Notes under the pieces: model-generated
Seen by the model: only the letters and a program-made list of their open reading frames with translations
Told to the model about the DNA's origin: nothing
Databases searched by the model: none
Part shown: positions 24,460-40,374 of the stretch, one piece after another
Position numbering within the stretch: position 1 is the first letter of the stretch
How the letters are laid out: each line of letters opens with the position of its first letter
Assembly: GCF_004310865.1 (NCBI RefSeq)
Contig: NZ_SIXI01000007.1
Span: forward strand, 1 to 64,000
Length of the DNA: 64,000 nt
Source: Aquabacterium lacunae
Lineage (GTDB): Bacteria > Pseudomonadota > Gammaproteobacteria > Burkholderiales > Burkholderiaceae_C
Direction: 5' to 3'
Program-made: the position numbers and the translations under genes

Positions 24460-25908
<1,449 letters not shown>

Positions 25909-26052
25909 GACAAAAGCTCCGGTTCAGAGGTGGTGTCTGAAACCGCAGGGCCGACCGGGAAGCTGTCAGGGCGCAAAAACACCGGGCGTGGCTGTTTCAG
26001 CCACACGGCGCGCGCAAAGTTCTGCAAACTCACCCAGAGGGACACATGCGGG

Positions 26053-26134
26053 TGAGCGCCGTTGCAATGGAAAGCGTCTCGAGCCTGGGGACATGCGCCA
26101 ACGGTGTGGGCAGCCTTGCAACGCTCCTCGAGAC
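26053..26134 (-). promoter_or_regulatory. SAH riboswitch upstream of ahcY
   Basis: On the minus strand the RNA shows the conserved SAH-riboswitch pieces in order: GUCUCGAG opening P1 (26134-26127), GAGGAGCGUUGCAA (26129-26116), CCAGGCUCGAGAC closing P1 (26088-26076) and CAACGGCGCUCA (26064-26053), whose GCGCUC can pair with GAGCG as the pseudoknot. TAGAAT just upstream (26142-26147) could be the -10 box. A hairpin GTGGCTG-AAA-CAGCCAC (25988-26004) lies between the aptamer and ahcY and may be the expression platform. SAH riboswitches turn genes on when SAH builds up. The stretch 26148-26372 shows no gene. Confidence 0.9.
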
Positions 26135-26372
26135 AGGCTGCATTCTACATGGGTGAGGGGGCCTGTGCCTGAACACTGGCCGGTCAAAACCCGCCATTTC
26201 CGCGAGGCATTTCACGGGTGGTGTCCCCTTGAGACGAGGGTGCTGATTTCCCGCAATGCGGGCTGCAATGCAAGCTCATTAGGGTAACCCCGGTCCTTCT
26301 CATCCAGAGCTTCGGCGTTGAATACGCACGGGCAAACGACGTGCCCACGTGCTCTCTAAGGATCCCATCACC

Positions 26373-38080: not shown

Positions 38081-39265
38081 TTACAGGCCGGCCGCTGCAC
38101 GCAGCGCAGCCACCTTGTCCGTGCGCTCCCAGCTGAACTCGGGCTCTTCGCGGCCGAAGTGGCCGTAAGCCGCGGTCTTGCTGTAGATGGGGCGCAGCAG
38201 GTCGAGCATCTGGATGATGCCCTTGGGGCGCAGGTCGAAAATGCCGGCTTCGGCCACGATCTGCGACAGTTTTTCGTCAGACACCACGCCCGTGCCCTCG
38301 GTGTACACCGTGATGTTCATGGGCTGGGCCACGCCGATGGCGTAGGCCACCTGCACCTGGCACTGCTTGGCCAGGCCGGCGGCCACGATGTTCTTGGCCA
38401 CGTAACGGGCGGCGTAAGCGGCCGAGCGGTCCACCTTCGAGGGGTCTTTGCCCGAGAAGGCACCACCACCGTGCGGGCAGGCGCCGCCGTAGGTGTCCAC
38501 GATGATCTTGCGGCCGGTCAGGCCACAGTCGCCTTGCGGGCCACCGATCACGAAACGGCCGGTCGGGTTGATCAGGTAGCGGGTGTTCTGCAGCCATTCC
38601 TTGGGCAGCACCGGCTTGATGATCTCTTCGATGATGGCCTCGTTGAACTCGGGCTTCATCTTGTCGCCCAGGCTCCACTCAGGCGCGTGCTGGGTGCTCA
38701 GCACCACGGTGTCGATGCTGTGGGGCTTGCCATCCACGTAGCGCATGGTCACCTGGCTCTTGGCATCAGGGCGCAGGAAGGGCAGGCGGCCATCCTTGCG
38801 CAGCTGGGCCTGGCGCTCGACCAGGCGGTGCGCGTAATAAATGGGCGCAGGCATCAGCTCGGGCGTTTCGTTGCAGGCGTAGCCGAACATCAGGCCCTGG
38901 TCACCGGCGCCGATGTTCAGGAAATCGTCAGACGCATGGTCCACGCCCTGGGCGATGTCGTTGCTCTGCTTGTCGTAGGCCACCAGCACGGCGCAACCCT
39001 TGTAGTCGATGCCGTACTCGGTGTTGTCGTAGCCGATGCGCTTGATGGTGTCGCGCGCCACCTGGATGTAATCGACGTGCGCGTTGGTCGTGATCTCGCC
39101 GGCCAGCACCACCAGGCCGGTGTTGCACAGCGTTTCGGCGGCCACACGGCTCTTCGGGTCTTGCTCGAAGATGGCGTCGAGGATGGCGTCAGAGATCTGG
39201 TCGGCCACCTTGTCAGGGTGCCCTTCAGAGACGGATTCGGAAGTGAAGAGGAAATCGTTCGCCAC
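38081..39265 (-). CDS. metK: S-adenosylmethionine synthetase
   Basis: Makes SAM from methionine and ATP. 394 residues with [37 protein letters not shown], and the P-loop-like [19 protein letters not shown]. Start codon is GTG 39265 with GGAG eight bases upstream; family starts ([19 protein letters not shown]) agree. The leader carries a SAM-II-type riboswitch and a competing hairpin, so the gene is probably repressed by its own product. Confidence 0.98.
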
Positions 39266-39271
39266 GGTGTG

Positions 39272-39330
39272 TGCTCCAGAAAGTTGTGACCTCGGCGTGT
39301 CGCCGTGGCTGGGGGAGCAAACAACTTTCT
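39272..39330 (-). promoter_or_regulatory. Mutually exclusive hairpins over the metK ribosome-binding site
   Basis: In the metK leader AGAAAGTTGT (39330-39321) can pair with ACAACTTTCT (39287-39278), a perfect 10-bp stem. TGCTCC (39319-39314), inside that loop, can instead pair with GGAGCA (39277-39272), which contains the ribosome-binding site. Outside a pseudoknot both stems cannot form at once, so this looks like a translational switch. Fold is by eye. Confidence 0.55.
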
Positions 39331-39343
39331 CCGGGCAGCGGCG

Positions 39344-39400
39344 AACGCTTTAGCGGCATGTTTGAATCGCCCCGCAAGTTGTCCTGTTAACTCGGCGATG
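39344..39400 (-). promoter_or_regulatory. SAM-II-type riboswitch (SAM-alpha) upstream of metK
   Basis: On the minus strand P1 is AUCGCC (39399-39394) pairing with GGCGAU (39371-39366). The loop holds GUUAACAGG and CUUGC (39378-39374), and the 3' tail is UUCAAACAUGCCGCUAAAG with the diagnostic GCUAAAG (39354-39348). This order, CUUGC, then P1 3' strand, then UUAAACA...GCUAAAG, is that of the SAM-II elements described upstream of methionine genes in Alphaproteobacteria. It lies about 80 nt above the metK start. Confidence 0.75.
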
Positions 39401-39477
39401 CAGAAAGTGTAGCGCAAGGGCTCATTTCCGGTGTCCGCATCAGGCATGGTCTGCGGGCCTTTATCATTCGCGCCACC

Positions 39478-40374
39478 ATGACCCGTGTGTTTTTCATGCT
39501 GGCTCACTGGCCTCTGGGGCTGCTTCAGGCCATCGGGGTCGTGCTGGGCTGGTTGGCCTTCCTGCTGTCGCCCTCTTACCGCCGCCGCCTGTGGCAGCAC
39601 GGCGGGGCGGCGGGCCTGACGGTGGGGCAAAGGCTGTCGGCCGTGGCCCACGCCGGGCGCATGGTGGCCGAAACCCCGTACCTGTGGGGACGCCCCCGTG
39701 ACGCCAGCCTGGGCCAGCGCGTTCAATGGCGGGGTGCAGAGCATGTCGATCAGGCCGTCGCCCAAGGCCGGGGCGTGATGATCCTCACCCCCCACCTGGG
39801 TTGCTTCGAGGTGGTGGCTCAGGCCTACGCCGAGCGCCACGGCGCCGAGCACCCCATCACCGCGCTGTACCGGCCCTCCAAGCAGCCCTGGCTGGCCGAG
39901 ATGATGGTGCACGCGCGCAACCGCCCGGGCATCCTGGCCAGCCCCGCCACCTTGAGCGGTGTGCGTCAGCTCGTTCGGGCGCTCAAAAAGGGCGACACCA
40001 TCGGCGTTCTGCCCGACCAGGTGCCCCCTGAAGGCATGGGCGAATGGGCGCCTTTTTTTGGTCGGTCTGCCTACACCATGACCATGGCCGCCAAGCTGAT
40101 CGCCCAAACCGGCTGCACCCCGGTCCTGTTGCGCGGCGAACGCCTCGGCCTGTTGCAACGCTGGCGCCAGGGCTGTGATTTCGTTGTGCATGCCACGGCG
40201 GTGCATGCGCCTGCCATGGCCGTGCTGCGCGAAGGCAACAACGTCCGTTCCGCCGAGGTCATGAACCAGCTCATGGAAGCCATGATCCGCCAGTGTCCCG
40301 AGCAATACCTCTGGGGCTACAACCGCTACAAGGGCCCCAGGCCCGACATCCTGACCACGGCGGCCGAACCATGA
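39478..40374 (+). CDS. LpxL-type lipid A acyltransferase (first of two)
   Basis: 298 residues of the HtrB/LpxL family, which adds secondary acyl chains to lipid A on the inner membrane face. N-terminal membrane anchor (residues 10-31), the catalytic HX4E motif as TPHLGCFE (His106, Glu111), then LPDQVPPEGMGEWAPFFGR and an ending QYLWGYNRYKGPR. It may equally act on other acyl acceptors. Its stop overlaps the next start by four bases (ATGA). Confidence 0.9.
   Translation: MTRVFFMLAHWPLGLLQAIGVVLGWLAFLLSPSYRRRLWQHGGAAGLTVGQRLSAVAHAGRMVAETPYLWGRPRDASLGQRVQWRGAEHVDQAVAQGRGVMILTPHLGCFEVVAQAYAERHGAEHPITALYRPSKQPWLAEMMVHARNRPGILASPATLSGVRQLVRALKKGDTIGVLPDQVPPEGMGEWAPFFGRSAYTMTMAAKLIAQTGCTPVLLRGERLGLLQRWRQGCDFVVHATAVHAPAMAVLREGNNVRSAEVMNQLMEAMIRQCPEQYLWGYNRYKGPRPDILTTAAEP

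Follow-up and report, generated by a model that had tools for sequence, protein, structure and literature searches.

The stretch of DNA analysed here, referred to below as the window, is 64,000 nucleotides long and comes from Aquabacterium lacunae (contig NZ_SIXI01000007.1). On its minus strand lies metK (38081–39265), which encodes a methionine adenosyltransferase of 394 amino acids with a GTG start at 39265, matches TIGR01034 at 590 bits and contains the Pfam N, M and C domains. The leader of this gene (39266–39399, minus strand) holds a SAM-II-type pseudoknot aptamer. Read from 39399, the order is the P1 5′ strand AUCGCC, GAGUUA...GGAC...CUUGCGG, the P1 3′ strand GGCGAU, a short linker, CCGCUAAAGCGUUCGCC, the region of a 10-bp stem, GGAG and the start codon. 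The two P1 strands lie at 39394–39399 and 39366–39371, and loop L1 (GAGUUA) at 39388–39393. The outer pseudoknot helix is formed by GGAC (39381–39384) with GUUC (39346–39343), while the inner helix pairs GCGG (39372–39375), which is part of CUUGCGG and overlaps the CUUGC loop segment (39378–39374), with CCGC (39353–39356). GCUAAAG (39348–39354) supplies the ligand-pocket strand. A first-pass annotation of this DNA had read AUCGCC/GGCGAU, CUUGC and GCUAAAG as standing in SAM-II order, and all of these are indeed found on the minus strand as it described them. The metK copy in the window carries a single such element and no tandem.

Downstream of the pocket strand lies a strand referred to here as X (GCGUUCGCC, 39340–39348), which contains the GUUC of the outer helix. 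Between its end at 39340 and the GTG there are 74 nt, so that a methionine/SAM gene follows the aptamer, as is asked of a SAM-II element. This interval holds the 5′ arm of a local 10-bp stem (AGAAAGTTGT, RNA AGAAAGUUGU; 39321–39330), a possible anti-Shine-Dalgarno UGCUCC in its loop (DNA TGCTCC; 39314–39319), a second strand, Y (GGCGACACGC, 39295–39304), the 3′ arm of the stem (ACAACTTTCT, RNA ACAACUUUCU; 39278–39287) and the Shine-Dalgarno sequence GGAG (39274–39277). Upstream of P1, a −10-like box TACACT (39406–39411) ends 6 nt before the helix. Among relatives, 168 of 177 leaders have TANNNT 3–12 nt upstream of P1, 124 of them at exactly 6 nt, compared with 6 of 527 control windows placed 40, 60 and 80 nt further upstream. 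The RNA is therefore expected to begin at or beside P1, which, judged from sequence, would place the aptamer at the very start of the metK mRNA.

To follow the element through relatives, 190 metK leaders were gathered, 110 from family genomes (the window's own included) and 80 from contigs of GTDB genomes; the family leaders were chosen by rank of MetK similarity, starting with the closest match, and metK was present at E ≤ 1e-100 in 193 of the 200 genomes sampled. Removal of 10 duplicates left 180 distinct leaders, and the same aptamer was parsed in 178 of them; the two others are cut by a contig end (L209) or have another L1 (L222). The parsing pattern itself demands G.[G/T]TTA, TTG and TAAAGCG. 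Without any pattern, GCTAAAG is found within the last 130 nt of 179 of the 180 distinct leaders, the exception (L091) having ACTAAAG with a matching GUGG. A longer insert of 17–122 nt precedes the GCUAAAG strand in 78 of the 178 leaders. These 78 are left out of the pair counts, which come from an alignment (A1) of the 100 short-loop leaders, 87 of them distinct; a second alignment (A2) holds 49 of the 100 rows.

Across the three helices in A1, 98.9% of cells are paired and 7 of 14 pairs have changed on both sides, in 83 cells, with at most 2 pairs and 24 cells in controls with slid helices. None of 500 shuffles, which ignore shared descent, scored as high on paired cells, two-sided pairs or two-sided cells, while a count of further pair types (13) was no higher than in shuffles (171 of 500 as high). 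Two-sided change affects 3 of 6 pairs in P1 (helix 1), 1 of 4 in the outer pseudoknot helix GGAC:GUUC (helix 2; 98.3% of cells paired) and 3 of 4 in the inner helix (helix 3). The compensatory changes that the first-pass annotation had proposed to look for in P1 and the pseudoknot are thus present among relatives, and a chance resemblance is ruled out by this covariation (7 of 14 pairs, compared with a slid-control maximum of 2). In the Undibacterium rows, P1 consists of CCCGCC with AGCGGG or of ACCGCC with GGCGGU. Among the 164 leaders with a full G run before the P1 3′ strand, the inner pseudoknot is GCAG:CUGC in 80, GCGG:CCGC in 56 and GCGG:CUGC in 21, with GCGA:UCGC in 5 and GUGG:CCAC and the mismatch GCGA:CCGC in 1 each. 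The other 14 of the 178 leaders are one G short there, which makes the inner pseudoknot one pair shorter; seven of them have CAGC opposite, with poorer pairing.

In an Rfam search of the window at family cut-offs, no family reached its cut-off at the metK leader, which rules out an ordinary above-threshold SAM-II. The first-pass annotation had suggested a search with SAM_alpha (RF00521), and this model does match end to end, over all 79 positions (E 0.0033, 301 nt searched), but at 22.9 bits the match stays under the gathering cut-off of 36 bits. Over 39200–39500 at E ≤ 10 there are 4 Rfam matches, of which SAM_alpha is the sole SAM or SAH class; the other SAM/SAH classes, for which no family model matched there, are ruled out. 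They include the SAM/SAH riboswitch RF01727 of Rhodobacterales, likewise a small aptamer directly before metK (PMC2864571), which differs in that its model has no match in this interval. In a search of the whole genome with SAM_alpha the metK leader ranks second (E 0.0101), behind one copy above the cut-off (L001, 1501–1575 on contig C33; 37.9 bits), which has U at aptamer position 10 and precedes metX, identified by NF047916 and NF001209, both above their cut-offs. At E ≤ 1 SAM_alpha also found matches in 7 of 14 control genomes, none above cut-off, so a match under the cut-off is by itself weak evidence; 19 of 20 relatives' loci had no SAM_alpha match at E ≤ 1 (46,440 bases searched), and by folding energy alone the leader does not stand out (z 0.56). 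In the reverse direction, all 31 of the loci at which SAM_alpha exceeds its cut-off are matched at E ≤ 0.053 by a model built from the metK leaders (R1); metX follows at 29 of these loci, or at 30 if L025 is counted, where the alignment and the element overlap. Elsewhere in the window, 26047–26135 on the minus strand carries an SAH riboswitch (RF01057, 57.7 bits) before ahcY (24460–25908, TIGR00936), and the genome therefore has separate SAM- and SAH-type elements.

The element is accepted as real because 178 of 180 leaders parse and the helices covary, and not on the sub-cut-off match alone; comparative sequence analysis confirms it as a SAM-II-type pseudoknot aptamer. With SAM-II it shares P1, an H-type pseudoknot, L1, UUGC and GCUAAAG in the same order and a methionine/SAM gene downstream, and the models match each other's loci, SAM_alpha weakly at metK. 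It is very probably of common descent with SAM-II and should work alike. It differs in its score below the Rfam cut-off, in a G in place of U10, in its position on metK, in a translational-looking platform made of X and Y, and in the longer insert of many leaders. The first-pass annotation's SAM-II aptamer on metK in the Burkholderiales therefore holds as to order and covariation, but not as a textbook member: with G at position 10 and a score short of the Rfam cut-off, it is not filed as a standard SAM-II.

How the aptamer might reach the ribosome site is suggested by X, which was absent from the first-pass annotation. By sequence comparison, this conserved switch strand has three possible partners: the aptamer loop (via GUUC), Y, and the metK start region. 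Y, a proposed antisequestor, has the form GGCAACGC in 119 of 178 leaders, and X:Y complementarity exceeds that of shuffles at p ≤ 0.05 in 118 of 178 (mean −13.2 compared with −9.0 kcal/mol); the window's own Y fits X with one bulge (p 0.02). Codons 1–4 of metK (GUGGCGAACG) are complementary to X as well, and in the window GGCGAACG (39256–39263; the last base of GTG plus codons 2–4) may act as a start-codon clamp. Ala2 is GCG in 74 of 87 genes, the highest of 40 Ala positions (mean 0.287), two others of which exceed 0.7; AAC at Asn3 is not unusual, being third of 9.

The tests below used 172 of the 178 rows for the ribosome site and for X blocking, 163 for the stem around Y and 170 for nascent RNA, the promoter count above having used 177. 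GGAG lies 8–20 nt before the start in 172 of the 178 leaders. A stem around Y, in the region through GGAG, has p ≤ 0.05 in 67 of 163 leaders. Pairing of the ribosome site, tested alone, gave a weaker result: 55 of 172 leaders are significant at p ≤ 0.05, and 70 have p above 0.2. Between the three bases preceding CUCC and the three following GGAG, the fit (210 of 318) is slightly better than permutation gives (maximum 208). In the window the stem around Y consists of the 10-bp stem together with GGAGC pairing with upstream bases. The first-pass annotation had taken this 10-bp stem for a competitor of the pairing between TGCTCC and GGAG, and here the prediction contradicts it: in the duplex of the window's own leader (L038 in the leader set; the locus is L232 in the order set) the stem extends the GGAG-containing helix, to −21.0 kcal/mol, with 0 of 100 shuffles as good. 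The ribosome-site duplex around UGCUCC alone is not significant there (p 0.10). The letters of the stem are local, as a same-genus relative (L084) differs in them.

In nascent RNA that stops just beyond Y, the expected number of X:Y pairs is 4 or more in 122 of 170 leaders. In full-length RNA, X and the start region share at least 4 pairs in 146 of 170, and X:Y reaches this number in only 5. With one strand, X, shared by the aptamer, Y and the metK start, the metK expression platform looks translational. We propose that the 5′ end of the metK mRNA is a SAM-II-type riboswitch through which abundant SAM reduces translation of metK, a reading to which we give a probability of roughly three in four. 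With SAM bound, GUUC would already be locked in the pseudoknot by the time Y is made; X:Y would then be blocked, and the ribosome site and start codon would be sequestered together in a helix (OFF). If SAM is absent, the X:Y hairpin would form first in the nascent RNA, leaving the ribosome site accessible for a time (ON). Such a switch would be kinetic, with a translational OFF, and its ON state needs kinetics because the full-length equilibrium favours X with the start region and a paired GGAG: in equilibrium folding of the tail, GGAG is paired both with X free and with X blocked, and no ON state appears.

Very probably, then, the metK-leader RNA senses SAM and turns down its own synthase. 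We infer both parts of this statement, SAM as ligand because the pocket is conserved and the target gene is metK, and the OFF direction because of gene function and transcription order rather than energies, which are compatible with the opposite direction. With the same aptamer and ligand, SAM could instead turn metK on, if capture of GUUC in the pseudoknot weakened the clamp of X on the start codon. When free, X makes about 9 pairs (median) with the start region at full-length equilibrium, and when the aptamer and GCGTTC are blocked the bases just after make about 3.9. Blocking X alone also raised the unpaired fraction of the ribosome site slightly, from 0.102 to 0.112 (Wilcoxon p 7e-5), opposite to what the OFF model expects; across the 172 leaders access fell by more than 0.1 in 6 and rose in 10, and the increase was larger, to 0.186, when other 6-nt windows were blocked. 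However, the ribosome site is paired in either state of X, and a SAM-ON switch would mean positive feedback on SAM synthesis and leave no clear role for Y, which is conserved and complements X as well. Activation by SAM thus seems unlikely to us.

The identity of the ligand depends on the pocket. Position numbers were assigned through the letters of structure 2QWY, by which GCUAAAG would be G42 to A47 plus the next base. In SAM-II, U10–U12, U20, U21, G22, C23, G42, C43, U44, A45, A46 and A47 are described as completely conserved, and SAM contacts U11, U21, G22, U44 and A47 (PMC3764141). By alignment to the crystal letters, the window keeps all of the listed pocket bases except U10, the five SAM-contacting ones among those kept. 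The base at position 10 (39391 in the window) is G, as it is in 175 of the 178 parsed leaders: L1 is GAGUUA in 173, GGGUUA in 2 and, with the U kept, GGUUUA in 3. One leader (L091) departs from the pocket at one further pair.

A changed ligand, or a changed selectivity between SAM and SAH, might have arisen in a SAM-II-derived aptamer through the replacement of U10 by G, since this base is among the completely conserved pocket bases (PMC3764141) and yet is G in nearly all leaders, and since GAGUUA also occurs in 26 of 30 metK rows outside the window's family. Against this, the bases that contact SAM are kept by alignment, the target gene is the SAM synthetase itself, and SAH has its own riboswitch before ahcY in the genome, so that we regard a change of ligand as improbable. 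Among rows not before metK, L1 is mostly GAUUUG or GAUUUA (27 of 44). With the 178 leaders left out, a terminator follows 20 of 36 U10 sites compared with 3 of 46 G10 sites (Fisher p 9e-7, descent ignored); for this count the metX pattern caught 5 sites among the 31 loci, and 9 rows of the window's family stayed in. A tentative and rather doubtful extension is that the metK elements form a distinct SAM-II subclass marked by G10, with translational platforms as opposed to terminators with U10, in which the change retunes or alters ligand recognition, so that the reading of SAM (or a related compound) differs between the two forms inside a single genome. Finally, a conserved and covarying leader need not have a metabolite ligand and might instead be bound by a protein, but with an end-to-end SAM_alpha match and a metK-built model that recognises metX, metZ-like and metH-like leaders, a protein acting without any metabolite is very hard to credit.

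The element extends beyond the window's family. R1 has matches in 281 of 399 genomes from the order (E ≤ 0.01) and in 97 of 274 class-sample genomes (E ≤ 0.001), in both cases not split by target and with genes beyond metK included. In 51 of 200 family genomes SAM_alpha itself scores above its cut-off. At 70 selected order loci (L228–L297), a non-random set of the 30 best matches plus 40 chosen regions, of which one search covered 69, metK lies downstream in 40, the window's own locus among them. Other targets were seen as well. Elements precede O-succinylhomoserine sulfhydrylase-like genes (metZ) at seven loci (L285 by profile; L269, L276, L277, L286, L290 and L295 by eye) and a metH-like gene at one (L284, profile-checked). 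In family f13, near-identical G10-form elements (L242, L243, L244, L247) stand before a non-metK gene, of which the L242 reading frame resembles, by eye, an AAA ATPase. Tandem SAM-II-type pairs precede a small ORF beginning MYDC or MFDC at L259, L260, L261, L262, L287, L288, L292 and L297, the first element at L292 being cut off by the end of that locus's sequence. These ORFs encode 95–112 amino acids (7 loci), and the 2 that were checked had no Pfam match at E ≤ 0.01; a MATE transporter follows at L288 (MatE match) and, by eye, at L259–L261 and L292. In class-sample genome G832, ten R1 matches on contigs C2 and C6 form pairs about 95–105 bases apart, resembling several tandem pairs.

Several of these arrangements have counterparts in the literature. 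Tandem SAM-II/SAM-V and SAM-II/SAM-II riboswitches with mixed platforms have been reported (PMC9481103), and L239 is similar: a U10-form first copy (1384–1441) is followed by a terminator-like hairpin and T-run, and then by a G10-form second copy (1501–1558) of translational appearance, with GGCAACGC and GGAG, before a further gene. The window's metK, with its single copy, differs. SAM-II with terminators has already been described in alpha- and betaproteobacteria, in an account whose available text does not mention metK (Barrick and Breaker 2007, PMC2258182). A betaproteobacterial metXZ RNA element, with a pseudoknot and terminator in metX and metZ leaders, was described in a survey that found SAM_alpha only in Rhizobiales and Rhodobacterales and that, in its available text, states no link of the metXZ element to SAM-II (Leyn 2014, PMC4239095). 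Since SAM_alpha and R1 matches sit on metX and metZ-like genes, the metXZ element would itself be SAM-II, and the elements in metZ- and metH-like leaders are probably this same element. A literature search of titles and abstract beginnings, with subscription papers mostly outside its scope, found no report of SAM-II on betaproteobacterial metK.

Part of the SAM-II family thus appears to be hidden by the Rfam cut-off, and the natural change at a pocket position offers material for studying how RNA recognises SAM. In the 2014 survey, betaproteobacterial metY, metK and metNIQ are given as without a known regulator, the authors' attempts on metK having failed (PMC4239095). For metK, the riboswitch proposed here is a concrete and testable answer, and as a candidate it would cover 178 of 180 distinct metK leaders as well as some metK genes across the wider order (40 of the 70 selected loci).
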